Assembly: GCA_024401555.1 (NCBI GenBank) | Contig: JAKSKV010000022.1 | Location: forward strand, 1 to 52,904 | Direction of reading: 5' to 3' | Length of the DNA: 52,904 bases | From: Paludibacteraceae bacterium | Lineage (GTDB): Bacteria > Bacteroidota > Bacteroidia > Bacteroidales > Paludibacteraceae | Shown here: piece after piece, positions 5,363-16,842 of the stretch | How the letters are laid out: the number at the start of each line of letters is the position of its first letter | Numbering within the stretch: position 1 is the stretch's first letter | Position numbers and translations under genes: made by a program | The notes under the pieces: generated by a model | Told to the model about the DNA's origin: nothing | Database searches by the model: none | Seen by the model: the letters and a program-made list of their open reading frames with translations, nothing else

Positions 5363-6832
5363 ATGTTAAAGAAAATCAGAGTCGTAGCTGCTATAGCATG
5401 TCTAACTCTTATCACTTTATTGTTCTTAGATTTCACGGGGACATTCTCCGACCATTTCGGATGGTTGGCGAAAATCCAATTCTTGCCAGCTGTTTTGGCT
5501 GTTAACTTAGTGATTGTCTTCGCATTAGTTATTCTTACATTGTTGTTCGGACGACTCTACTGCTCGGTCATCTGTCCTCTCGGCGTGATGCAAGACATCT
5601 TCACTTGGTTGGGCAAAAAGACAAAAAAGAACAGATATTCTTTCTCGGAGAATAATAAGAAATTGCGCATCGGAGCATTGGTGGCCTTCGTCATCACTTT
5701 GCTCGTTCCCGCCACCTCATTCATCGCACACTTGGTGGCGCCATACAGCGCCTTCGGACGCATCGCGACCAATCTTTTCGCCCCAATTTACAGATTGTGC
5801 AACAACGGATTAGCGACCATTGCGGAGAATCACGACAGTTATATGTTTTATAAGGTGGAACAGGTTATTCCGTCCTCCGTATCCATTATCGTGGCTTTGG
5901 TTACACTGATCGGACTCGGTGTAGTGGCTTGGAGATATGGCAGGGCTTGGTGCAACAACATCTGTCCAGTAGGAAGCATATTGGGATGGCTCTCCCAATT
6001 CTCCCTCTTCAGACCTGTCATCGACACGGAGAAGTGTAACGGATGCGGCAAATGCGCTCGCAACTGCAAGGCATCTTGCATCAACGCCAAGGAGCACCGT
6101 ATCGATTATAGCCGTTGCGTAACCTGCTTCGATTGCATCGAGAACTGTCGTCAGGGTGCTGTCCAATATGTGAGAAGGCCCATCGAGAAGAGAAAGAGAG
6201 CCGTCGAGACCGTCGATTCCTCTAAAAGGGATTTCTTGACCACCGGTGTACTCTTCGTGGCGGGAGCCGCCATGGAGGCGAAGGCGAAGAAGGTGGATGG
6301 CGGATTGGCGGTCATCGAGGAGAAAAAGATTCCAGCCCGCAACATCTCACCCAAGCCTGCCGGCTCATTGAGCGTCAAAAACTTCACCAGCCACTGCACG
6401 GCTTGCCAACTTTGCATTTCAGCCTGTCCGAACCACGTATTGCGTCCATCCACCAAGATGGAACATTTGATGCAGCCTGAGATGTCGTTTGAGTTGGGCT
6501 ATTGCCGCCCTGAATGCAATAAGTGCGCGTCTGTATGTCCTGCGAGAGCCATTCATCCGATCACTGTTGAGGAGAAGAGCTCCATCCAAATCGGTTATGC
6601 GGTATTCGATAAGGAGAACTGCGTAGTGAGCACCGATGGCGTAACTTGCGGCAATTGCGCTCGCCATTGTCCTGTCGGAGCGATCTTGATGGTCGAGCAG
6701 GAAGATGGCAAGAAATACCCTGCTGTCAACACCGAGATCTGTATCGGTTGCGGTGCTTGCGAGAACCTTTGTCCAGCCCGTCCATTCAGTGCAATTCACG
6801 TCGAGGGTATGGAGGTACATAGAACAAGATAA
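5363..6832 (+). CDS. NapH/NosR-like membrane polyferredoxin (multiple 4Fe-4S clusters)
   Basis: The ATG at 5363 (MLKKIRVVAAIACLTLITLLF) gives 489 residues; the frame upstream overlaps the ssb terminator and is unlikely to be translated. The N-terminal half has four or more membrane segments and two cytosolic C-x3-CP motifs (YCSVICPLGVMQDIF and WCNNICPVGSILGWL), the hallmark of NapH/CcoG/NosR membrane ferredoxins. Then come ferredoxin motifs: CNGCGKCARNC, CVTCFDCIENC, CTACQLCISACP, a CRPECNKCASVCP segment, CGNCARHCP and CIGCGACENLCP. Between clusters lies KRDFLTTGVLFVAGAAM, a twin-arginine-like hydrophobic stretch that may carry the last clusters across the membrane. An electron-transfer role is clear, but donor and acceptor are unknown because no reductase gene is nearby. 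Confidence 0.82.
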   Translation: MLKKIRVVAAIACLTLITLLFLDFTGTFSDHFGWLAKIQFLPAVLAVNLVIVFALVILTLLFGRLYCSVICPLGVMQDIFTWLGKKTKKNRYSFSENNKKLRIGALVAFVITLLVPATSFIAHLVAPYSAFGRIATNLFAPIYRLCNNGLATIAENHDSYMFYKVEQVIPSSVSIIVALVTLIGLGVVAWRYGRAWCNNICPVGSILGWLSQFSLFRPVIDTEKCNGCGKCARNCKASCINAKEHRIDYSRCVTCFDCIENCRQGAVQYVRRPIEKRKRAVETVDSSKRDFLTTGVLFVAGAAMEAKAKKVDGGLAVIEEKKIPARNISPKPAGSLSVKNFTSHCTACQLCISACPNHVLRPSTKMEHLMQPEMSFELGYCRPECNKCASVCPARAIHPITVEEKSSIQIGYAVFDKENCVVSTDGVTCGNCARHCPVGAILMVEQEDGKKYPAVNTEICIGCGACENLCPARPFSAIHVEGMEVHRTR

Positions 6833-6880
6833 AAATCTTAATTCTTAACTCATAATTCTTAATTAAATTTTATACCTTTG
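6831..6880 (+). promoter_or_regulatory. Aldolase promoter in a duplicated AT-rich element
   Basis: TACCTTTG (6873-6880) matches the -7 consensus. The upstream 42 nt are a near copy of 5281-5322 at the same distance from the -7 box. No clear TTTG is seen at -33. Confidence 0.6.
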
Positions 6881-6920: not shown

Positions 6921-7928
6921 ATGGTTAATTACAAAGAGTTAGGCTTGGTAAACACTAAGGATATGTTTGCTAAGGCACTTAAGGGCGGTTACGCTGTCCC
7001 TGCTTTCAACTTCAACAACCTTGAGCAACTTCAAGCAATCGTAACTGCTGCAGCTACAGAGAAGTCTCCAGTTATCCTTCAAGTTTCTAAGGGTGCTCGT
7101 AACTACGCTAACGGAACTATCCTCCGTTACTTGGGTATGGCAGCTGTAGAGTACGCAAAGGAGCTTGGTTGGGAGAAGCCACAAATCGTTCTTCACCTCG
7201 ACCACGGTGATTCTTTCGAGCTTTGCAAGGACTGTATCGACAACGGTTTCTCTTCAGTTATGATCGACGGTTCTCACCTTCCATACGAGGAGAACGTTGC
7301 TTTGACTAAGAAGGTTTGTGATTACGCACACCAATACGGTGTAACTGTAGAGGGTGAGCTTGGTGTATTGGCAGGTGTTGAGGATGAGGTTTCCGCAGAC
7401 CACCACACATACACTAACCCTGAGGAGGTAGTTGATTTCGCTACTCGTACTGGTTGCGATTCATTGGCTATCTCTATCGGTACTTCTCACGGTGCATACA
7501 AGTTCACTCCTGAGCAATGTACTCGTAACGCTGAGGGTAAGCTTGTTCCTCCTCCATTGGCATTCGACGTTCTTGAGGGCGTAATGCAAAAGTTCGCTGC
7601 ACAAGGTGGTTTCCCTATCGTTCTTCACGGTTCTTCTTCAGTTCCTGAGGAGTACGTTGAGATGTGCAACACTTACGGTGGTAACTTGCCTAACGCAATC
7701 GGTATCCCTGAGTCAGAGTTGTCAAAGGCTTCTAAGTCTGCTGTATGTAAGATCAACATCGACTCAGACTCTCGTCTTGCCTTCACTGGTGCTGTTCGTA
7801 AGCACTTCGCTGAGCACCCAGATCACTTCGACCCACGTCAATACTGTGGTGACGCTCGTAAGGAGATGGTTAAGATGTACACTCACAAGATCGTTAACGT
7901 TCTTGGTTCTAAGGGTAAGGCTGAGTAA
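6921..7928 (+). CDS. fba: Class II fructose-bisphosphate aldolase
   Basis: A 335-residue zinc-dependent aldolase that cleaves or forms fructose-1,6-bisphosphate in glycolysis and gluconeogenesis. Metal-binding and active-site segments are visible: VLHLDHGDSFE, EGELGVLAGVEDEV, ISIGTSHGAYKF, VLHGSSSVP and CKINIDSDSR. The 335-residue form is common in Bacteroidetes. Codon use differs from the neighbours (cgt, ggt, ctt, gct and aag dominate), as expected for a very highly expressed gene. It has its own promoter and a strong terminator, so it is probably monocistronic. Confidence 0.96.
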   Translation: MVNYKELGLVNTKDMFAKALKGGYAVPAFNFNNLEQLQAIVTAAATEKSPVILQVSKGARNYANGTILRYLGMAAVEYAKELGWEKPQIVLHLDHGDSFELCKDCIDNGFSSVMIDGSHLPYEENVALTKKVCDYAHQYGVTVEGELGVLAGVEDEVSADHHTYTNPEEVVDFATRTGCDSLAISIGTSHGAYKFTPEQCTRNAEGKLVPPPLAFDVLEGVMQKFAAQGGFPIVLHGSSSVPEEYVEMCNTYGGNLPNAIGIPESELSKASKSAVCKINIDSDSRLAFTGAVRKHFAEHPDHFDPRQYCGDARKEMVKMYTHKIVNVLGSKGKAE

Positions 7929-7955
7929 TTATTCAGTTTTCATCTTAAATAAAAG

Positions 7956-7987
7956 AAAAGCTGTCGGGTTTCCGGCAGCTTTTTTTG
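7956..7987 (+). terminator. Rho-independent terminator after the aldolase gene
   Basis: aaaagctgtcgg pairs with ccggcagctttt across a 3-4 nt loop (one G-U), followed by a run of T. Confidence 0.9.
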
Positions 7988-8306
7988 TTGTGTTCTCCTA
8001 ACAACCTCCTCGCATATCCTATATATCCTCATCATCCTCATCCACCCTGCCTATCCTCGCTTCGCATATTCCACCCCGCACATCCTCGCTTCGCTCGGAT
8101 CTACGGGGCTATACAAATAGCGTCTTGCAGAAGCATAGATGACCCTCCCATCAGCGTCCGGAGGACGCTATCTCTGTAACCCCGTACATACACGACACAA
8201 TAAGAAGGGGACGTACGGGGGAGCAGTAGCATAGAATAAACGCAGATGAAAACACAGACACGATACATACAATATCAGCGTCAATAGAGGGTAGGGTACA
8301 TACGCT
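7988..8306. other. Non-coding stretch: CT-rich direct repeats, then the left flanking repeat
   Basis: No convincing gene. 8005-8100 holds imprecise repeats of tatcctc, catcctc and cctcgcttcgc. 8101-8199 is the left copy of a dispersed hairpin repeat, entered separately. 8200-8300 has a further partial copy of the cgtacgggg segment (8211-8220). Confidence 0.6.
8101..8199. repeat. Left flanking repeat: two inverted copies of a tacgggg...tagcgtc hairpin unit
   Basis: A plus-strand unit (8101-8136, containing GGGGCTATACAAATAG and AGCGTCTTGC) faces a minus-strand unit (8153-8190) whose hairpin is AGCGTCC-gga-GGACGCT (8153-8169). The segment 8153-8201 matches 13656-13704 in the same orientation at 43 of 49 positions. 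These direct copies bracket the seven-gene operon 8307-13471. Confidence 0.75.
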
Positions 8307-8555
8307 CTATTCTACACCTAATTGCTCTGCAAACACTTTGTCTACAATTGCACCAATTTTTGACCTGTCAACATCTACACCCATATGTAAATGCATTTGA
8401 TAAATATTATCAATAATTCCTTCCTTTTGTTCTTGAATAATAGGATGATTAATATCTATTTCTTTAGACTCAATATGCTCCTTCAACACATTCACTTGAC
8501 TAGTCAAATAATCCATAATGTAAATATTAGAACGACTACCACAAATTTTACTCAA
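8307..8555 (-). CDS. Small hypothetical protein, last gene of the accessory operon
   Basis: Up to 82 residues from a TTG at 8555 that overlaps the stop of the preceding gene. An ATG at 8516 would give 69 residues (MDYLTSQVNVLKEH...) and is an equally good start. No signal peptide or membrane segment is seen. The sequence looks mainly helical and acidic, with segments such as KEHIESKEIDINHPIIQEQK and GAIVDKVFAEQLGVE. I do not recognise a family. Overlap with the upstream gene suggests translation as part of the operon. Confidence 0.55.
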   Translation of the reverse strand: MSKICGSRSNIYIMDYLTSQVNVLKEHIESKEIDINHPIIQEQKEGIIDNIYQMHLHMGVDVDRSKIGAIVDKVFAEQLGVE

Positions 8556-9006
8556 CCTTTACATAATAAATAAAAACCTCTTTATCTTCCTGAGTGAAAT
8601 TTGTCAGTAACTCAACAGCCTCTGTCCAGCCAAACGACTTTTCATTAATCCTTTCTATCATTTCGGTTTCAGAAGTTCCATCACCATTTTCCTTCGACGA
8701 AATCACAAGGTCACTAGTGATTTGAGATCCATTAAAGAAACGACTTACTTGAGCAGTCGCTTTAACACTTGCCACACGAAACATAACACTCTCATTTGTA
8801 TATTTTGACTTATCTAATGTCAACACTGAGAGCAAATATGAATTTTCGTAGTCAGTGAATAACTTCACACCCTCAAATGGCTTTGACTCATACATTCTTG
8901 TTAAAAAATTTGTCATCTCGATCTTTTCCGAGTTATAACTTTGTGAAAAAATCGTCAAACTTGAAAACAGAAAAAAAAATATTAGTTTACAGGTTTTCAT
9001 AACCAT
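8548..9006 (-). CDS. Exported hypothetical protein of the accessory operon
   Basis: The 152-residue protein begins with a signal peptide, best started at the second Met (MKTCKLIFFFLFSSLTIFSQS, third residue of the frame), with cleavage near SQS. The mature part is about 125 residues with alternating beta-like segments (SYLLSVLTLDKSKY, VMFRVASVKATAQVSRFF, EVFIYYVKVE). There is no lipobox. Function unknown. A gap of 62 nt separates it from the FlgT-N-like gene upstream, and its stop overlaps the start of the gene downstream. A periplasmic or surface location is inferred from the signal peptide only. Confidence 0.7.
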   Translation of the reverse strand: MVMKTCKLIFFFLFSSLTIFSQSYNSEKIEMTNFLTRMYESKPFEGVKLFTDYENSYLLSVLTLDKSKYTNESVMFRVASVKATAQVSRFFNGSQITSDLVISSKENGDGTSETEMIERINEKSFGWTEAVELLTNFTQEDKEVFIYYVKVE

Positions 9007-9068
9007 AAATTTTATAAAACTATGAAAAAAAAAGACACTAACAATTAAGATTTTTAAACTTCACCAAT

Positions 9069-10469
9069 TTATTCCCTCTTGGGTATAGGAGAGAAAAACA
9101 GTTTATAGTCGTCTTTCAATTTTATATATTTATTTCTGGGGCGATCATAATACAAAGACTGTAACAGTCTCAAGTAACGTCCATAATCCCCCCCCGTATA
9201 TATCATACCATTTTTAATAGAATTATCTATATAAAGTTGTTCTTTATCAAAATCTACACCCATAATATCTTTCATATCTACTTCATAAGGAGAACGTTTT
9301 ACTCGATGCAAAAGAATATCAAACGACAATCCATGTTCTGAAGATGTCGCAATTTTGAGATTAGACAGTTTTCCCATCTCTGCCTTAGAATATGGGATTT
9401 CGAGTTTACAAATAATACAAGTACCAGCCATCACCTTCTCGTAATTATTGTCAAATTTATGGATTAAATCATCATCATATCCTTTTGATGGGGTTGCATT
9501 GATTAGTGAATAATCAATAGGTTGAACAGAAAAGAATCCGTGAGACAAATGGCATGAAGATAATTTTCTATCATCATTACTACCTAATTTGCGTTTCACA
9601 TAAACTTCGTTCCCTATATTATCTGTAATAACAAATCTAGTACAAACTGATGAAAGATACATTTTTTTCGCAACTTCGAATAAATCTAGCATTAATTGAA
9701 TATCATACAAGTTTAAACCAAACTGTTTATACTTATCCATCTCAGATAAAGACGGCTTAAGCTCTTTCAATCCATTATTAATTGAACTGATAAAAGGTCT
9801 CATGTTATTATTGGGTTTACACACGACTGTAACAGGAACATAAAATCTTCCATCCCGCCCCCCATAAGGCTCTGCAGTTTGTATTTCATAATCCACCAAA
9901 TCTGGAGCATTTTCAAAAATCGTCAAAAAGAAATGCCTCATTGCCGTCACTTTACTTTTCAAATTCAAGTCAGCAATTTTACTGTTCATCATGAAAGTTG
10001 CCCCTGATAATTCTGTTTCCATACCTTTACTTTTAGCATAATTTACCAACTTGGTGATGCTTATCGTTGCATTTATCATGACGGAAACATTGCCATTCGG
10101 CAATACTGAGGACGAGATCTCACTATATCTATGTACATTACCTCGGGAAATTGTAACAATTTCATCCGACACTAAATCATCATTTAGAACTTCAGTTTTT
10201 GAAGATACAAAAGTGCCGAATGTTTGTTCTAACGCACTTCTCAATGCGGCCTTAATAGCGTCCTCTTTGGTTTTCCCATCTCCATAAGAAGAAACAGTCA
10301 CAACGTCACCTGGGTCGCCTTGAGATTGTTGTCCAGGCATTAATATTGAATTGTTAGCATGGGAAGCACTAGAATTATTACCTTTCACTTGCTTCCCATA
10401 TGCAACACTTATTGCAAAAAAAGACAATAAAAACAATAATACACAATATCTATTCATAATCATAAACAT
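9069..10469 (-). CDS. Exported protein with FlgT-N/LPP20-like domain
   Basis: 466 residues from the first of three clustered ATGs (10469, 10463, 10457); each leaves a signal peptide ending near SVAYG. After a short Ser/Asn-rich linker, residues 55-140 read VVTVSSYGDGKTKEDAIKAA and continue through EQTFGTFVSS, LVSDEIVTISRG and a VSVMINATISITKL strand. This pattern (a glycine turn, a long helix ending in a conserved VG/FG, then two strands) is what I know from the N-terminal domain of flagellar FlgT and from LPP20/CsgG-associated envelope proteins. The remaining 320 residues are unrecognised. No flagellar genes are present, so a different envelope assembly is likely. Gene spacing (20 nt) suggests co-transcription with the upstream coiled-coil protein. 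Confidence 0.68.
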   Translation of the reverse strand: MFMIMNRYCVLLFLLSFFAISVAYGKQVKGNNSSASHANNSILMPGQQSQGDPGDVVTVSSYGDGKTKEDAIKAALRSALEQTFGTFVSSKTEVLNDDLVSDEIVTISRGNVHRYSEISSSVLPNGNVSVMINATISITKLVNYAKSKGMETELSGATFMMNSKIADLNLKSKVTAMRHFFLTIFENAPDLVDYEIQTAEPYGGRDGRFYVPVTVVCKPNNNMRPFISSINNGLKELKPSLSEMDKYKQFGLNLYDIQLMLDLFEVAKKMYLSSVCTRFVITDNIGNEVYVKRKLGSNDDRKLSSCHLSHGFFSVQPIDYSLINATPSKGYDDDLIHKFDNNYEKVMAGTCIICKLEIPYSKAEMGKLSNLKIATSSEHGLSFDILLHRVKRSPYEVDMKDIMGVDFDKEQLYIDNSIKNGMIYTGGDYGRYLRLLQSLYYDRPRNKYIKLKDDYKLFFSPIPKRE

Positions 10470-10489
10470 TAAATTCGTTATAACTTATA

Positions 10490-11593
10490 TTACCATAAAT
10501 ACACCACCTCGTACTGCGTTTGAGGCTGATTCTTCGCATACTCTAAACCAACTTGACGGCATGCCTCAATTGTTTGTTTTCTGCTTTCTATATCTGCAGC
10601 TTGTTGTTTCTGCCTATATTGGTTATCAGCTTGTTGCTGGAGCAATCTTCTTTCATTGTCAGCCTGTTGTTGTTTCGCACGATATTCATTATCTGCTTGC
10701 TGCTGAACAGCTCTTGCAGCATCATCACGCTTTTGTTTCTCCACATCATCTTTGTATTTCTGCATTTTAAACTCCCACTCTTTCTTCTCATCTGCCCTTA
10801 GTTTTCTATTGATTTCAGATTGCAAAGCTTCAACAGAAGATTGACTTGGCGTCCCTGCCGGAATTTTAGCCATAATATCAGCGACTATCGAAGCGCCAGA
10901 CGCATTGGGCGATTCACTCCATCTCGTTTGTGCTTCCTGCAGAAGTTGTGCAGCATCTGAGTTAATTTTTTCAGTATTGTACTGAATCATTAAATCCTGA
11001 CACTCGTCAGAACAATCACAGATCTCAGGCACTTGCATAAGTGCGTATATAGCTGCGTCATAATCTCTCATAGCAGCCGAGTTAGCGGCTTCTTGTTTTA
11101 TTTGAGCACATCTCCTCGTGTAATAATCAACAATCTTTTGCTTTGCTCGATTAAGGAAATCCACAATCTCCTTATTCTTTGTCTTTATTCCCGTTATCCC
11201 CGAAATGAAAGCTTTGTTCTCATTGATTCCCACACCAATAACAGAAATAGTAGTTGATTCGTACACTTTGTTTTCTATCAAATCTCCAATCATGAATGTA
11301 AAATCCATATTCATGGAAACTCGTTGAGGAGGGCCGTATGTGATGTCTTTTGATAGAATACTAACTTTTGACGTTATGACAAAACGATTATTAGGATCCG
11401 TCTCAGCTACACCATTAGAAGTTATCATCTGAGTCATCTTGTTCTCAAGTTGTTTCAGTGCTTCGTTGGGTATATTATCTCTTTGCGGCTGAACAACTCT
11501 AACAAATATCTTATCGAATGATCCCTGTGAATAGACTGTACACGGAATCAGGCAACATATAAAGATCCAAAAAGAAAAAAATGTTTTTCCCAT
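10490..11593 (-). CDS. Exported protein with Gln/Ala-rich hendecad-like coiled coil
   Basis: 367 residues with a signal peptide (cleavage near VYSQ, residue 23). Residues 27-125 form a mixed alpha/beta domain (FVRVVQPQRDNIPNEALKQL, then FVITSKVSIL and MNMDFTFMIGD) that recalls small envelope assembly domains of the LpoB/CsgG type, without certainty. Residues 155-225 look like TPR-type helices (RDYDAAIYALMQVPE). Residues 296-340 repeat an 11-residue unit around QQQADNxYR four times (10574-10708 in DNA). That unit predicts a long coiled coil or helical rod. The gene lies 12 nt downstream of the next exported protein. Function unknown; a structural or scaffold role in the envelope is inferred. 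Confidence 0.68.
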   Translation of the reverse strand: MGKTFFSFWIFICCLIPCTVYSQGSFDKIFVRVVQPQRDNIPNEALKQLENKMTQMITSNGVAETDPNNRFVITSKVSILSKDITYGPPQRVSMNMDFTFMIGDLIENKVYESTTISVIGVGINENKAFISGITGIKTKNKEIVDFLNRAKQKIVDYYTRRCAQIKQEAANSAAMRDYDAAIYALMQVPEICDCSDECQDLMIQYNTEKINSDAAQLLQEAQTRWSESPNASGASIVADIMAKIPAGTPSQSSVEALQSEINRKLRADEKKEWEFKMQKYKDDVEKQKRDDAARAVQQQADNEYRAKQQQADNERRLLQQQADNQYRQKQQAADIESRKQTIEACRQVGLEYAKNQPQTQYEVVYLW

Positions 11594-11605
11594 ACTTTCA
11601 TAAAT

Positions 11606-12616
11606 TTATTGTTCTCCTAGTACAATAATCGCTTCACCTAACCCTCTAGTCATAAGTTTGCCTGGAATTCCAAAAGAATTCTTTAAATATTTCACCAATC
11701 CAGACGCAAAAGACCTTGCATCCAAACTTCTTCCCGACTCATTTTGTAAAGGGATACGAACTTGCTCAAACTGCATAAAGTTTTCAGTGGCATCTGTTAG
11801 ATTGAAATTTCCACCAACCGTATTTGAATGCATCCAATCCTCTATTATCTCTGATAGTTGTGTCCCATTGAAGTCACTTTCTAAATCCTCAGACCAATCA
11901 TTCCATCTTTTTATTGTTAAAATAGTCTCTCTACCTTTGGTATTAATGTCTTTATAGAAAGCGACCATTTGTCTGTCAAACTCTTTTATGTTTGCCTTCA
12001 CCGCATCTTCTAGAAGGACAGGAACAATTTCGGAAGAAGCACTGCCTGTACCAGTAGAAGTTCCAACTCTCTTACTCGTGTAAGAATCAAAAGCCTCTAA
12101 TGTAAATGATACAGATTTGTTGGAACCCTCCCTATTTACTTTCCACCATATTTGAATCAATATATCTGCTTTCGCCCTTTTTTTCAAAATATCAAGAGGG
12201 CTCTCTGCCAATGATGCTCCTGCGTTTTTTGACATTGTTACATTATCCTCGGCCTGACGCTGATTGATAGCTCTTAATTCTTGTTCGACATCTTTTATAC
12301 TATAACCCAAATCTGTTAATATACCACCAACTTTACTGATAACCTGCCCTAACTCAGTATCTTCTTGAAAAGCCTGTAAATAATTTGGAACTTTTACCTT
12401 AGTTCCCTGATTATCCCATGTGGTCATAAAATAACGCATGGTACACCAATTATCACTTGGCAATATCATGATTGTTGGTTTTTTCTGTGATGAAGAATTT
12501 TGAACGACATTTACCGTTTCTATTTCTTTCCCTTTTCCCTTGGCATAACTCAAATCTACGATCGATAAACATGCCAGTAAAACAATAACTATTTTTCTCA
12601 TAACAATCATATCCAT
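11606..12616 (-). CDS. Exported hypothetical protein (DUF6175-like appearance)
   Basis: 336 residues from ATG 12616; the sixth residue (ATG at 12601, MRKIVIVLLACLSIVDLSYA) gives the cleanest signal peptide. The mature domain opens with KPTIMILPSDNWCTMRYFMT, a strand and loop typical of proteins that share a fold with TolB-N/CsgG-type assembly domains. It continues with RAKADILIQIWWKVNREG and a C-terminal GLGEAIIVLGEQ strand. I recall similar Bacteroidales proteins annotated as DUF6175 but could not check. It starts 3 nt after the stop of the HEPN-like gene and is 12 nt from the next gene, so it is firmly in the operon. Confidence 0.68.
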   Translation of the reverse strand: MDMIVMRKIVIVLLACLSIVDLSYAKGKGKEIETVNVVQNSSSQKKPTIMILPSDNWCTMRYFMTTWDNQGTKVKVPNYLQAFQEDTELGQVISKVGGILTDLGYSIKDVEQELRAINQRQAEDNVTMSKNAGASLAESPLDILKKRAKADILIQIWWKVNREGSNKSVSFTLEAFDSYTSKRVGTSTGTGSASSEIVPVLLEDAVKANIKEFDRQMVAFYKDINTKGRETILTIKRWNDWSEDLESDFNGTQLSEIIEDWMHSNTVGGNFNLTDATENFMQFEQVRIPLQNESGRSLDARSFASGLVKYLKNSFGIPGKLMTRGLGEAIIVLGEQ

Positions 12617-12619
12617 ATC

Positions 12620-13135
12620 TTACTTTGATTTACAATTTGACGTACTTCCTGATATAGAAGATGCTTCCGAGGATGTCTCGATGGGATTTACTTCAAAAAT
12701 CAGTTCATCTAAATCTTTCTTGCATTTCCCATCTTTCTGAAGATCTTCCCATGCTTTCTTTATGTTTGACAGAAGCGACTGTGCACCTATAATAGGGACT
12801 TTACCATTTCCAAATTCATCATCAACTGCACTGACTCTGATGGAAGCACTAGGCAACATTGAGTGCAACAAGCCACAGCGAAGCAATCCATACAAATCAA
12901 TCTTTTTGTATGCCTGTAAGCCGTCTAAATCAAGTGCTTTATTAAAAAGTTTTTTACTCTTATTCTTGCCGTTTCTCCATCGAGCTTTTTCACACATACA
13001 AATCCCCAGGAACTCAATCATAGAGCACATAATCCAAAATGCGACATAAGGATGATTGCCCTTTGTCAGAGATTCCACCTCAGTTAACAATCCCTTAAAA
13101 AAATCCTTAGAACTTTTCTTCATACTGTGAGACAA
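12620..13135 (-). CDS. Cytosolic protein with HEPN-like R-x4-H motif
   Basis: 171 residues, no signal peptide, mostly helical. Residues 82-95 read YGLLRCGLLHSMLP; Arg86 and His91 give the R-x4-H spacing that marks HEPN domains, where this motif forms an RNase active site or a degenerate remnant. Upstream helices include VAFWIMCSMIEFLGICMC. The C-terminal 35 residues are Ser-rich and probably disordered. It is the second gene of an operon otherwise made mainly of exported proteins, which is odd for a HEPN protein. The call rests on one motif and helix layout only. It could simply be a helical family without nuclease activity. Confidence 0.55.
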   Translation of the reverse strand: MSHSMKKSSKDFFKGLLTEVESLTKGNHPYVAFWIMCSMIEFLGICMCEKARWRNGKNKSKKLFNKALDLDGLQAYKKIDLYGLLRCGLLHSMLPSASIRVSAVDDEFGNGKVPIIGAQSLLSNIKKAWEDLQKDGKCKKDLDELIFEVNPIETSSEASSISGSTSNCKSK

Positions 13136-13162
13136 ACTATTTCTGTATTACTATCTAACCAG

Positions 13163-13471
13163 TCATTGTTCATTTACATATTGTAAACACTCGGACACGA
13201 ATTGAATCAATTGATTCCTTCCTCGTACATCATCTAACCGCAAAATATAAGAATCAATTCTGTCTTTTTCTGGATGTGAAGTCTTATAATAATCAAGTGC
13301 CACCAAAAGAAAAGCATAAAGTTTTCCAAATTCTACACCATTAGTATAACCCCTAGACGCTAAATATTTATTTGCGTAATTAGCATCTACACCGGCATAT
13401 TTCGCTCTTTGGCAATTATAAAGAGTCCGTAATAACAACTCGTAAGCCATAGGAAAGTTTTCTTCATTCAT
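13163..13471 (-). CDS. Small helical hypothetical protein, first gene of the accessory operon
   Basis: 102 residues, no signal peptide, mainly helical, rich in Tyr (AYELLLRTLYNCQRAKYAG, LVALDYYKTSHPEKD). The start MNEENFPMAYELL follows a good minus-strand promoter at 13501-13531, with a leader of about 25 nt. Not a family I recognise. As first gene of the operon and next to the HEPN-like gene (27 nt apart) it may work with that protein in the cytosol. Confidence 0.62.
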   Translation of the reverse strand: MNEENFPMAYELLLRTLYNCQRAKYAGVDANYANKYLASRGYTNGVEFGKLYAFLLVALDYYKTSHPEKDRIDSYILRLDDVRGRNQLIQFVSECLQYVNEQ

Positions 13472-13500
13472 ATGAGTAATTTATTTAATTAACATTTTTA

Positions 13501-13531
13501 CAAATATAGAGACGCATATCCTGCAAACAAA
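13501..13531 (-). promoter_or_regulatory. Promoter of the seven-gene accessory operon
   Basis: On the minus strand TATATTTG (13501-13508) with TTTG (13528-13531) exactly 19 nt upstream, a full match to the Bacteroidetes consensus. It drives genes 13471 to 8307. Confidence 0.75.
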
Positions 13532-13629
13532 GAAACCACCGTAACATATTCATTTACACTATCATACATTTATTTACACAGTTGTGTATAATATTCTTAT
13601 ACACCATATCAACCAGACCGACACTTGTA

Positions 13630-13704
13630 GCGTCTTTTAGACGCACTAATCCCCCAGCGTCTGCAAGACGCTACCTCTATAACCCCGTACATACACGACA
13701 CGAT
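13630..13704. repeat. Right flanking repeat with two hairpins
   Basis: Hairpin GCGTCT-ttt-AGACGC (13630-13644) precedes AGCGTCT-gca-AGACGCT (13656-13672) and the shared ataaccccgtacatacac segment. 13656-13704 matches 8153-8201 as a direct repeat at 43 of 49 positions. The seventh stem pair is C-G in the left copy and T-A here, a compensatory change. Confidence 0.75.
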
Positions 13705-13706
13705 AG

Positions 13707-13980
13707 TGGCGGTGGATGTGCAGGGCTGTGAGCGCCACGACTGTAGAGTGGATGTGCAGGGCTGTGAGCGCCACGGCAGCAGACACGACAGTGTAGTGTA
13801 TGTGCGGGGCAGTGACCGGCAAGACTGTAGAGTGGATGTGCAGGGCTGTGAGCGCCACGGCAGCAGAGCGGATGTGCCCACGGCAGCAGACACGACAGTG
13901 TAGTGTATGTGCGGGGAGATGCGAATATGGGCATACGGACAACGACAGACATGACAGTGTAGCATATATGCATGTAGATG
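13707..13980. repeat. GC-rich degenerate minisatellite
   Basis: About seven imperfect units of roughly 35 bp, each built from gtggatgtgcagggctgtg, an agcgccacg segment and a cgactgtag or cagcagacacgacagtgtag end. Units become more diverged to the right. Base composition contrasts sharply with the AT-rich surroundings. Unequal unit length and the absence of spacers rule out a CRISPR array. Confidence 0.7.
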
Positions 13981-14027
13981 GGTGAGATAATATACAACTG
14001 TGAAGTGTGTATATAACAAATTTTATA

Positions 14028-14035
14028 TATCTTTG
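14028..14035 (+). promoter_or_regulatory. -7 element of the toxin-antitoxin operon
   Basis: TATCTTTG, 30 nt before the antitoxin ATG. No convincing -33 element. Confidence 0.55.
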
Positions 14036-14064
14036 TGCTATCATTCCGTTAACACTTATATAAC

Positions 14065-14346
14065 ATGGAAACGATTACAGACAAAAAAATATTCACTGGC
14101 TTTAGGCTTAAAGAGAGTCTTATTCAAGATCTTAAACGTCTTGCAACAGGCTCCAATAGAAGTCTCAACAATTACGTAGAAACGTTGCTGACAAAATTCG
14201 TTGACGCGGAAAAAGATGAGGCCACAGCATTAAGCAAGGAAGAACTGATAGAAAAGGTAGCAAGATCAGAAAAAGAAACCAAGGATGGTGAGGGTATCGT
14301 CATCCGCAACAAGGAAGAACTGGAAAAATTTTTAAATGAACTATGA
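14065..14346 (+). CDS. Ribbon-helix-helix-type antitoxin
   Basis: 93 residues. The first 45 read like a MetJ/Arc-type ribbon-helix-helix: a strand (KIFTGFRLKESLIQDLKRLA), then GSNRSLNNYVETLLTKF. An acidic, flexible C-terminal half follows, suited to wrapping and neutralising the toxin. It overlaps the YoeB-like toxin gene by 4 nt (ATGA), the classic toxin-antitoxin coupling. It probably binds its own promoter (14028-14035) with the toxin. RHH antitoxins paired with YoeB-type toxins occur, although the textbook partner YefM is of another fold. Confidence 0.85.
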   Translation: METITDKKIFTGFRLKESLIQDLKRLATGSNRSLNNYVETLLTKFVDAEKDEATALSKEELIEKVARSEKETKDGEGIVIRNKEELEKFLNEL

Positions 14347-14618
14347 AATACGAAATAATCATCTCACCTGTTGCCAAAGAAGATATCCAAAAACTAAAAA
14401 GAAGCGAACCTAGTGCATTCAAAAAATTGGCCAAATTATTGCTTGAGTTAGGAGAACACCCTGAGACCGGCACTGGAAAACCTGAAAAATTAAAAGGCGA
14501 TCTTTCGGGTAAATGGTCAAGACGTATTACTGACAAGCATCGAATTATCTATAGTATAGATAACAGTATCATCAATGTTATCGTGTTAAGTTGCTGGGGA
14601 CATTATGAAGATAAATAA
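14343..14618 (+). CDS. yoeB: YoeB/Txe-family mRNA interferase toxin
   Basis: 91 residues, normal length for the family. Residues 46-90 hold the signature GKPEKLKGDLSGKWSRRI, then TDKHRIIYSID and VLSCWGHYED. Expected catalytic residues correspond to Glu48, Arg67 and His87. The family cleaves mRNA in the ribosomal A site. The toxin appears intact. It lies immediately outside the right flanking repeat and minisatellite, and ends 6 nt from the convergent XRE gene. Confidence 0.92.
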   Translation: MKYEIIISPVAKEDIQKLKRSEPSAFKKLAKLLLELGEHPETGTGKPEKLKGDLSGKWSRRITDKHRIIYSIDNSIINVIVLSCWGHYEDK

Positions 14619-14624
14619 ATATCG

Positions 14625-14846
14625 CTACCCCTTCCCAAATGTATCTCCGCTCAAATCCTTAAAAAAATCATGTTTTAACTCTATTGATATCTTCGCAAGT
14701 AAAGCGGTATCACAGCTCTCCCTCGTAAAAATATCATAAACATTCTGCCGATTGCAATGAAGATGCTTCGCCAGCCAAGAAGGGCCACGTTCCTGCCGTT
14801 CCATCTCCGCTTTTATTAATTTCCCTATATGTACAGCCATAGGCAT
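14625..14846 (-). CDS. Small XRE-family helix-turn-helix protein
   Basis: 73 residues from ATG 14846 (or Met3 at 14840). An HTH is visible: GPSWLAKHLHCNRQNVYDIF, with SWLAKHL as the first helix and CNRQNVYDIF as the recognition helix. The tail is FFKDLSGDTFGKG. The family binds DNA as a Cro/C1-type regulator; the target is unknown. The start codon directly follows six T at the end of a 300-nt structured leader (14847-15153), so expression is probably controlled at RNA level. Confidence 0.8.
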   Translation of the reverse strand: MPMAVHIGKLIKAEMERQERGPSWLAKHLHCNRQNVYDIFTRESCDTALLAKISIELKHDFFKDLSGDTFGKG

Positions 14847-15153
14847 AAAAAAGGCGTGTAACTACCATCTGTTTATTGAACAGCCAGGGAAACCGCCAAG
14901 CAACCCCACACAACGATAAACAAAGGCAGCTCACGCCCCAAAGGACGCAAGCCCACTTCCATTTATTCCGTTGTGTACAGTATGCTGAAAGATTTGGCGG
15001 TTTTCGGCTATATGTTCAGAATGAATGAATAAAGCTCACTTATATTTTCAAGACAGTATTTACATCATATTCAAAATCCAAATTAGTACATTAAACACTT
15101 GACCGCTCTTCCCCTCCTTCGGCACACGGTCTGTTTGCCAACAGGCAAACCCA
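14847..15153 (-). ncRNA. Structured leader or small RNA upstream of the XRE gene
   Basis: Read on the minus strand, a -7 box TACCTTTG (15157-15164) is followed at once by hairpin GTTTGCC-tgtt-GGCAAAC (15133-15150). Further on is a rod of three stacked stems: 14994-15002 with 14891-14899 (9 bp, perfect), 14969-14976 with 14908-14915 (8 bp, perfect), and a 10-bp apical stem 14943-14952 with 14929-14938 (three G-U pairs). The first two stems are separated by an asymmetric loop of 17 and 8 nt. The RNA ends in UUUUUU at 14852-14847. The rod with an internal bubble recalls 6S RNA. It could equally be an attenuator, because CACGCC just before the U run can pair with GGCGTG of the apical stem. No open frame explains it. 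Confidence 0.5.
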
Positions 15154-15306
15154 TCACAAAGGTACAAAATCATTAATTATTACGAACACCTTTCATCACG
15201 ACTATCACCCTATTCATCTTATAAATCGAAAATTTCGTCGATAATTGTTGCACACAACTAAACATGTCGTTACTTTAGCCGTACAAACTTTTAAAATAGT
15301 ATGATT
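15154..15306. promoter_or_regulatory. Divergent promoters of the leader RNA and the lipoprotein gene
   Basis: Minus strand: TACCTTTG at 15157-15164. Plus strand: TACTTTAG (15271-15278, one mismatch to TAnnTTTG) with TTG at 15248-15250, 20 nt upstream. Small palindromes lie at 15227-15237 (cgaaaatttcg) and 15246-15257 (gttgcacacaac). Confidence 0.45.
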
Positions 15307-15858
15307 ATGAAAAAGGTATTAGTATTCGCTACAACTGCTTTGGTTGGTTTATTCTTAGCTGCCTCTTGCTGCAATTGCGGTAAGGATGGCAAGTGTTGCA
15401 AAAATCAGGAAAATCAGGAGGCTCAGGAAGAGGAGTTCAATGAGGAGGATATGCCTGAGTTAGACGCTCAAGTACGCCCAAGACACGGTCGTGGCCACGG
15501 TCCTCACGGTGGTATGCGTCCAGGTTGCCAAATGGAGGAGATGACGCCAGAGATGAAAGAGAAATGCCAGAAATGGATGAAGTTCGACAGTCTCTCGGTA
15601 GAGGAACAGAAGGCATTGCTGTTGGAGAAGAAGGCCGAAATCGACAAACGAGAGGCTGAAATCGCCGCGAAGAAGGCTGAAATGGAGCAGAAATGGACCA
15701 ACTTCGAGCAACTATCCATCGAGGAGCAGAAACAACTCATCGAAATGAAATCATTCGGTGGCATGATGAAGATGGGACCTAAGCGCCCAATGGGTGACCA
15801 CCATGGAACGCCTCATCACGGGGAGGGCAGACATCACGCTCCTCACCACAATAAGTAA
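15307..15858 (+). CDS. Cys- and His-rich lipoprotein with helical central segment
   Basis: 183 residues from the second ATG (MKKVLVFATTALVGLFLAASC), which gives a proper lipoprotein signal with lipobox AASC. After the lipidated Cys comes a cysteine cluster (CCNCGKDGKCC), then an acidic stretch. A Gly/His/Arg segment (RPRHGRGHGPHGGMRPG) follows, then a charged helix in two similar halves, each containing SxEEQK (SLSVEEQKALLLEKKAEID and LSIEEQKQLIEMK). The tail has at least nine His within 25 residues. Metal binding, or a Spy/CpxP-like periplasmic chaperone or sensor role, is inferred from composition only. Own promoter and strong terminator suggest a monocistronic gene. Confidence 0.8.
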   Translation: MKKVLVFATTALVGLFLAASCCNCGKDGKCCKNQENQEAQEEEFNEEDMPELDAQVRPRHGRGHGPHGGMRPGCQMEEMTPEMKEKCQKWMKFDSLSVEEQKALLLEKKAEIDKREAEIAAKKAEMEQKWTNFEQLSIEEQKQLIEMKSFGGMMKMGPKRPMGDHHGTPHHGEGRHHAPHHNK

Positions 15859-15878
15859 GACAAGTGTTTCTCAATAGC

Positions 15879-15914
15879 AAGAGAGGGTGTCAAGCAATCT
15901 TGGCACCCTCTCTT
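15879..15914. terminator. Bidirectional terminator between convergent genes
   Basis: aagagagggtgtcaag pairs with cttggcaccctctctt (16 bp, one G-U) around caat. It serves the lipoprotein gene and the convergent PorP/SprF-like gene. Confidence 0.85.
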
Positions 15915-15933
15915 CGTTTCGTAACAAACGCTA

Positions 15934-16842
15934 TTAGAACTGGATAGACAATAGAATCTCGTGGGTGTTGGAGGGTAAATTATTGTATTTGCCCATATTC
16001 AAATCGAAGGTGTATCCCACACGGTACCTCTCCAAAAATTCGATACCCAATGTGAAAGCCATCATAGACATCTGTGTTGGATGAGCCAAATCAGGCTTCC
16101 AAGTCACTCCTCCCCAAATGAAACGATCGTAAAAGGCCATCGCATTGATCTCCAAAATATTGGTTTTATTCTTGTGCATATAGACCAGCGCAGGTGCGAT
16201 GTCGAAATGTTCCGACACAGGGATGAATCCTCTACCATACACATAGAAGTGACGGCCCGCTTTGAAGGTGGTGGATTCCTTATTCAACAAGTGAGTACAA
16301 GAGGCACCCACCATCCAATGTTTGGAGGTGAACTCAAAACCGAAGTTCATATCTGGCGTGACCTCCGTGGTTTTCTCCTGCACGAAGGTCTCGGTGTCGG
16401 TGTATTCAGACTCATCACGAATAATGTGGTCCTCCGGGTTGAAATAGCCAAAATTCGCACCTGCGGAGAGGCCCAAGGAGAGGATATACTTCTCGGTGAT
16501 GTCCAAATGGTAAGAATAGGCTACCTGCGCATTGGTGGTGCTGTGTCCGATGCCCAAATGGTCGTGGAACACGGAGAGTCCCAAACTGGACTTCAACTTC
16601 TCGCTATAACCGGAGAAGTTCAGCAAACCCACCTTAGGCCCCTTATCGACACCCACCCATTGGAAACGCCCCAAAACGAAGAGGTCGAATTTATCGTTGT
16701 TTCCGCTACCAGCCGGATTGACATTGATACGGGAGAAAAATTGCTGCGAGAGCAACAAGTCTTGCTGGGCGTGGGTGTTCCCCACACTTAGGAATGATAT
16801 ACAGATCGCAAATACGATTTGACAAATTCTGTTACGCTTCAT
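15934..16842 (-). CDS. PorP/SprF-family outer-membrane protein of the T9SS
   Basis: 302 residues with signal peptide (to THAQ, about residue 26). The mature start QQDLLLSQQFFSRINVNPAG is the PorP/SprF hallmark. A 14-16-strand barrel pattern follows with LGRFQWVGVDKGPKVGLLNF, and the chain ends in ILLSIQF, a C-terminal aromatic residue typical of outer-membrane barrels. SprF-type members are known to be needed for surface delivery of type B CTD proteins encoded beside them. Here a 1534-residue type B protein is two genes upstream, so a dedicated role for that protein is likely. Third gene of the trio, 32 nt after the OmpA/PD40 gene. Confidence 0.9.
   Translation of the reverse strand: MKRNRICQIVFAICISFLSVGNTHAQQDLLLSQQFFSRINVNPAGSGNNDKFDLFVLGRFQWVGVDKGPKVGLLNFSGYSEKLKSSLGLSVFHDHLGIGHSTTNAQVAYSYHLDITEKYILSLGLSAGANFGYFNPEDHIIRDESEYTDTETFVQEKTTEVTPDMNFGFEFTSKHWMVGASCTHLLNKESTTFKAGRHFYVYGRGFIPVSEHFDIAPALVYMHKNKTNILEINAMAFYDRFIWGGVTWKPDLAHPTQMSMMAFTLGIEFLERYRVGYTFDLNMGKYNNLPSNTHEILLSIQF

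Follow-up and report, generated by a model that had tools for sequence, protein, structure and literature searches.

What might a compact operon of seven genes, four of them encoding predicted exported proteins, do for the bacterium that carries it? This question is raised by a stretch of 52,904 nucleotides (nt) from a Paludibacteraceae bacterium of the phylum Bacteroidota (GenBank assembly GCA_024401555.1, contig JAKSKV010000022.1, positions 1 to 52,904; hereafter the window). Seven open reading frames (ORFs), named g1 to g7, run on the minus strand from position 13471 to 8307 behind a single promoter, with intergenic gaps of 27, 3, 12, 20, 62, and -8 nt, which matches the layout given in the initial annotation (one strand, gaps of -8 to 62 nt, one promoter). 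That annotation had proposed an envelope-spanning assembly or secretion apparatus that moves as a cassette. The proposal holds in part: g3 to g6 are conserved together, and the cytosolic genes proved not to be part of one fixed assembly. Our own answer, to which we give a probability of roughly 47%, is that the operon represents a modular system for conflict, found in Bacteroidota, mobile, and most likely directed against phages, in which an envelope core (g3 to g6) is combined with interchangeable cytosolic effectors.

Related loci were collected by similarity to g3 or g6, many of them from metagenome bins; 32 came from a g3 scan of the genome collection. Genomic context was read for 113 loci including the window, with four duplicates among them (L089, L094, L108, and L116), and a g4 relative was present in 104 of the 113 loci having g3 (the four duplicate loci included). 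Two layouts were recognized. Type I loci have g3 and g4 preceded by a short gene, c4, which is present once or twice and in some loci is fused with g3; type II loci carry g5 and g6 in addition to g3 and g4. In a tree of 111 g3 proteins, 37 rows including the window form one clade with 100/100 support; 33 of these rows are type II, and the other four belong to contigs that break off too early to show g5 and g6. Among the members of the clade are Flavobacteriaceae, Chitinophagaceae, Sphingobacteriaceae, Prolixibacteraceae, Dysgonomonas, and other Bacteroidales. A total of 41 loci have the type II form or belong to this clade; all of g3 to g6 were seen in 30 of them and c4 in 17. Four loci without a readable operon (L146, L147, L149, and L153) were kept out of the 41, and L151, which overlaps L051, is counted together with it within the 41, neither being within the 30. 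As for the conserved co-occurrence by which the initial annotation was to be judged, g3 to g6 do recur together in other Bacteroidota, and it is the cytosolic genes that vary by locus.

The evidence that carries our reading lies between the core genes. The conserved core is interleaved with often overlapping, mostly leaderless genes, a set that changes between loci and whose members turn up again in other slots. Such same-strand non-core genes, here called cargo, stand between core genes in 24 of the 30 full g3-g6 loci. Over the 41 loci, 50 interior cargo genes were found, belonging to 30 sequence families, 11 of which occur in more than one locus; when genes at the operon ends are counted too, there are 77 non-core genes, 52 families, and 14 recurrent families. 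Because some of the 27 genes outside the outermost core genes are plainly neighbors (by eye, some are housekeeping genes, e.g., L033 primase and methionyl-tRNA synthetase), the 50 interior genes provide the figures to use. Eleven of these 14 are found in at least two different slots; for example, SIR2 cargo is found between g5 and g6 or between g4 and g6, and TIR-like cargo between g4 and g5 or between g5 and g6. The junctions of interior cargo are tight: 89 of 97 are within 60 nt, 51 are 10 nt or less, and 21 overlap, the median being 6 nt. Moreover, a crude test detected a hydrophobic N-terminus in 6 of the 50 interior cargo proteins compared with 172 of 185 core proteins. The operonic spacing, taken together with the reappearance of cargo families at other positions, is the strongest argument for a functional link between core and cargo. 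In the older type I form, a gene lies between g3 and g4 in 2 of 66 loci and between c4 and g3 in none of 49.

Domain scans covered 56 cargo proteins, 49 of which are among the 77 non-core genes; 12 of the 50 interior genes fall outside this set (A5), and some of those 12 were scanned separately. Among the 56, SIR2_2 was detected in three (E 1.8e-6 and 4.2e-6), the PADLOC TIR effector in three (best 4.4e-8), an ADP-ribosyltransferase (ADPrib_exo_Tox) in two (best 1.6e-10), HNH in two (best 2.5e-7), and PDC-S31, a PADLOC phage-defence candidate, in one (E=4.1e-57 over the whole length; DUF2971-like, with a Pfam E of 0.0057, below the cut-off). The recognized cargo proteins are of enzyme type and have conserved motifs: the two ADP-ribosyltransferases, for instance, retain R, STS, and ExE, which we take to be the motif of this enzyme class. 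Ten of the 11 effector-type cargo genes are interior, and the remaining one, the third SIR2 (L050), lies behind the final core gene that is visible before its contig runs out. By eye, GIY-YIG-like cargo was also noted in four loci and HEPN-like cargo with RN-x3-H in L039 and L151; in L063 and L040, a short way past the downstream end of the operon, are caspase/CHAT-like genes, which received no support from Pfam. Loci L051 and L061 represent a larger variant of the system, with zinc-ribbon-like and SPFH/GYF-family proteins among the core genes and, in L061, also a HerA ATPase with a GYF domain.

In the window, leaders were called by eye and with a crude hydrophobicity count. Hydrophobic N-terminal leaders are present by eye in g3 to g6 and absent in g1, g2, and g7, in agreement with the four signal peptides and the two leading cytosolic proteins of the initial annotation; the third cytosolic gene, g7, which is the last of the operon, had gone unremarked there, as had the DUF6175 identity of g3 and the flanking direct repeats. 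Profile searches of all seven products, the check suggested at that stage, gave a convincing match for g3 only, which aligns over its full length with DUF6175 well above the cut-off (352.5 bits against 23, profile positions 1-293). No convincing family was found for g1, g2, and g4 to g7 in Pfam, NCBIfam, PADLOC, and PHROG, and the operon had rightly been called uncharacterized. None of the seven operon proteins matches a gene that defines a known PADLOC defence system, and Rfam at gathering scores gave zero matches across window positions 7000-16000.

The AlphaFold2 model of g3 (mean predicted local distance difference test score, pLDDT, 86.9) has helices and strands in alpha/beta order, and from these elements, judged by eye, g3 could have a CsgG/TolB-like fold. 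The TolB/CsgG-like opening ascribed to g3 earlier received no sequence support, as neither Pfam nor PDB sequences gave a match. The Gln-rich 11-residue repeat is indeed visible in the g4 sequence. The FlgT-N/LPP20-like resemblance is below the cut-off for g5 of the window (LPP20, 13.8 bits against 25.9, E=0.084) and recurs with weak scores across the g5 family: at E<=0.1, LPP20 is matched by 13 of 27 members (best 2.3e-4) and FlgT_N by 6 of 27 (best 0.003). An Lcl_C domain is located at the g5 C-terminus in 6 of the 27 family members, and several loci have at least two g5 copies. PDB sequence searches with the core proteins returned no credible match, and profile comparison did not support a common origin of these proteins (top probability 33.5 for g6-g5, over 21 columns that are mostly leader; 30.9 for g5-c4, over 99 columns). 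A number of weak matches were set aside as chance, including Cas8b for g4 (E=5.3e-4, the sole PADLOC match of the seven proteins at E<=1), phrog_32508 for g5 (E 0.0014, function unknown), DUF4752 for g2 (E 0.0056), two matches among PDB sequences (g3 to RAD50, the C-terminus of g5 to HbP1), and CENP-B, SEO_N, and similar profile matches of operon proteins.

The cargo of the window operon would consist of g1, g2 (possibly an HEPN RNase), and g7. A search of 200 genomes of the family found a single homologue of g2 in the 199 others (35% identical), and it lies in a related operon with the order g3-g4-g5-g2-g6, that is, in a slot different from that of the window. Thus placed, g2 counts as travelling cargo. 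Both g2 proteins have LRCGL[LV]H in common, which contains R-x4-H. The HEPN motif is Rx4-6H, with a typically polar residue after R (PMC3710099). The assignment of g2 as a putative HEPN RNase is tentative because C follows R, at the position where a polar residue is typical. Both g1 and g7 (families F14 and F15, each with a single member) have no relatives in the loci read, whole genomes not having been searched for them.

Table. Features of the seven-gene operon and its flanks in the window
Feature	Position	Strand	Basis or remark
Right flanking 51-nt direct repeat	13655..13705	+	pairs with left copy
Bacteroidetes-type promoter, TTTG-N19-TATATTTG (= TTTG-N19-TAnnTTTG)	13501..13531	-	29 nt upstream of g1
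g1, cytosolic protein of 102 amino acids (aa), cargo	13163..13471	-	ORF; without family match
g2, cytosolic cargo protein, 171 aa (TTG start) or 167 aa (ATG)	12620..13135	-	ORF; homologue in related operon
g3, predicted exported DUF6175 protein, 336 aa, core	11606..12616	-	PF19672, E=2.1e-105
g4, predicted exported, 367 aa, core; middle helical with Gln-rich 11-residue repeat	10490..11593	-	relatives in DUF6175 loci
g5, predicted exported, 466 aa, type II core; N-terminal part LPP20/FlgT_N-like, C-terminus variable	9069..10469	-	family profiles
g6, predicted exported, 152 aa, type II core	8548..9006	-	without credible family
g7, small cytosolic cargo, 82 aa (TTG) or 69 aa (ATG)	8307..8555	-	8-nt overlap with g6
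Left flanking 51-nt direct repeat	8152..8202	+	88% identical to right copy

The promoter pattern, which we take to be the Bacteroidetes consensus, has three exact matches in the window compared with 0.22 expected from shuffles. The guanine-cytosine (GC) content of the operon is 0.354, against a window mean of 0.459 (standard deviation 0.033, 5.2-kb bins), and is equal to or under the lowest bin, so that the operon is AT-rich and unlike its neighbors, as initially described. The earlier suggestion that it moves as a cassette also gains from the wider survey, in which operon GC was under flank GC in 14 of 16 loci measured and the distribution was patchy. Of 16 genomes in the genus of the window, its own is the one that has DUF6175; the counts are 67 of 295 for the order and 19 of 395 for the phylum. 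The type II mark, g6, was found in 7 of 291 genomes of the order, in 8 of 395 of the class (two at E ~1e-5 only), and, in further sets, in 1 of 21 (the centre genome itself) and 4 of 108; these sets have genomes in common, and the genome of the window is counted in them. In another order, g6 was found in 0 of 250 genomes, a set without a positive control.

The two direct repeats that flank the operon share a 19-nt core for which, at one mismatch or less, the 3.5-Mb genome has exactly two sites, both flanking the operon. Flanking repeats were seen in 2 of 20 loci examined (the window and L036) and hence are not general; the other 18 have none clearly above shuffles, L033 and L037 falling narrowly short. 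In L036, a type II operon, the 51-nt direct repeats (6789-6839 and 12437-12487) are 90% identical to each other and unrelated in sequence to those of the window. Lower operon GC and flanking repeats favor horizontal movement. No integrase match was found among the seven operon products, to which the scan was limited. The plasmid collection contained no match for g3, g6, g2, or two cargo proteins, and scans of viral contigs found no relative of g2 or g3.

Several features were observed around the operon. Left of it, two 25-nt direct repeats (88%) with CCTCGCTTCGC lie at 8041-8094. Just beyond the right flanking repeat is an imperfect 36-nt direct repeat array (13712-13903), and beside the island, on the plus strand, two small adjoining genes (14065-14618) have by eye the look of a RelB/RelE-type toxin-antitoxin pair, next after which comes a small helix-turn-helix-like gene (14846-14625).

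How might such a system work? We infer that core and cargo would cooperate, the core as sensor, the cargo by acting on the cell or the invader, with phages as the target. The four Sec-exported proteins, joined by c4 as a fifth in the 17 loci that have it, would form an envelope complex, which would sense an attack such as phage adsorption, DNA entry, or envelope damage. It would then trigger the cytosolic cargo, enzymes that would act on NAD, nucleic acids, or proteins, and growth stop or destruction of the invader would follow. A more specific version, which we put forward as possible and hold more tentatively, is that of an immunity class spread across several Bacteroidota orders, whose constant exported sensor complex of LPP20/DUF6175 type would be served by a cytosolic killer enzyme swapped like a cartridge between the core genes. 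With the same reserve, SIR2, TIR-like, ADP-ribosyltransferase, nuclease, HEPN-like, and many unknown proteins may be these killer enzymes.

A number of observations weigh against a modular conflict system. The weakest point is the step from envelope to cytosol: no inner-membrane partner recurs, and therefore this link is missing. In addition, comparison of the window's proteins with PADLOC gave no core protein that resembles a known defence sensor, and phenotype and signalling are what we infer. Most of the cargo lacks a recognized domain, an effector-type assignment having been made for 11 of the 56 scanned proteins. The three TIR-like assignments come from PADLOC only, Pfam giving for the one member tested, from L037 (Flagellimonas marinaquae JCM 11811, a marine bacterium), a weak deoxyribosyltransferase match (E 0.044). 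The HEPN candidate in the window is weakened by the cysteine after R and by the lack of a match of g2 to Pfam HEPN at E<=1. Some interior genes are unlike effectors, namely those for the SPFH/GYF, zinc-ribbon, and HerA proteins and, by eye, a FISUMP-like gene in L033 and a lipoprotein-like gene in L051. Interior cargo is absent from six of the 30 full loci. Four of the six (the window, L040, L043, and L063) have cargo at the operon ends, and the other two (L041 and L057) have none at all by the counting rule applied. The full operon is missing for three of the seven g6 matches in the order and for more of those in the class, and in L146, L147, L149, and L153 only fragments resembling g6, or g6 and g5 together where a contig ends, were seen. 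Given how the loci were found, their counts do not represent a random sample.

Other readings of the same locus have to be weighed. An ordinary envelope operon might serve as a landing place for small foreign genes that share no function with it. The cargo is mostly unassigned and diverse, and the operon is AT-rich and mobile-looking, as such hitchhiking would predict, but passengers without a shared function would hardly account for junctions with a median of 6 nt and 21 overlaps in 97, for the same cargo families in different slots, for the sole g2 relative found being in the same kind of operon, or for a type I form nearly free of insertions, and we regard this explanation as unlikely. Somewhat less likely still is an export machine for contact-dependent toxins, with the core as a CsgG-like channel and the cytosolic cargo as toxins delivered to neighboring cells. 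The LPP20/FlgT_N-like domain in the core, the toxin-type domains among the cargo, and paired small genes that are potentially toxin and immunity gene (e.g., L059 and L060) would fit such a machine; yet no inner-membrane export component recurs, the single cargo gene in L038, L046, and L055 leaves no immunity partner, and no CsgG match was obtained from Pfam or PDB sequences.

The polarity of the system could also be the reverse, with the variable cytosolic proteins as sensors or regulators and the exported core as effector, for instance an envelope pore or barrier. A constant core with a varying cytosolic part is what would be expected if the latter tracked changing invaders, and the loci with at least two g5 copies also accord with this idea. 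Against it, the recognized cargo proteins are enzyme-type with conserved motifs rather than binding domains, and we consider a reversed polarity quite improbable. A surface appendage or adhesion assembly with the cytosolic genes as accessories, in line with the envelope assembly of the initial annotation, could draw on the leaders of the core proteins and on Lcl_C at g5 C-termini, but it leaves the SIR2, TIR-like, ADP-ribosyltransferase, HNH, and PDC-S31 cargo unexplained and sits poorly with the patchy distribution; we consider it very improbable.

The modular conflict system that we prefer can be set beside known systems. Its nearest relatives are the type I DUF6175 (PF19672) loci of Bacteroidota (c4-DUF6175-g4), which share homologous g3 and g4 in the same order and differ in having no g5 or g6 by the profiles used, one or two c4 genes upstream, and almost no interleaved cargo. 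In several type I loci (L075, L077, L079, L119, L131, and others), a single fusion protein of ~410-500 aa combines c4 with DUF6175, and therefore the two probably work together. One type I locus, which also encodes a WG-repeat protein, is on an unannotated 9-kb scaffold filed as Bacteriophage sp. (L157, MT836698.1), which was judged likely to be bacterial DNA.

FlgT is a Vibrio flagellar protein and LPP20 a Helicobacter protein. The g5 family weakly resembles both profiles (LPP20 and FlgT_N), and no flagellar gene is among the seven. CsgG is the curli secretion channel, and the likeness to it is limited to the general idea of an alpha/beta fold. TIR and SIR2 are effectors in CBASS/Thoeris-type systems; some of the cargo is of these kinds, but neither a nucleotide cyclase nor any other known cytosolic sensor was seen in the window operon. 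Zorya combines the envelope complex ZorAB with soluble modules that vary, either ZorCD or the HNH nickase ZorE (PMC11890865). The likeness to our loci would be an envelope complex with varying soluble modules; the difference is that the Zorya core is a membrane motor, whereas the core of the window type carries leaders. In PADLOC, neither ZorA nor ZorB matched any of the window's seven proteins at E<=1, and the operon is not Zorya.

In the open-access papers searched, we found none on DUF6175/PF19672 and, judging by title and the start of the abstract, no description of this operon. If the system proves to be anti-phage, its newness lies in the envelope core, the principle of swappable effectors being already known. 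If our reading is true, these loci would represent an undescribed modular immunity or conflict system in which sensing begins outside the cytoplasm, and DUF6175 would gain its first functional setting. Moreover, the core genes would be a simple probe for collecting many cargo families that are still unknown, and new effectors may be among them.

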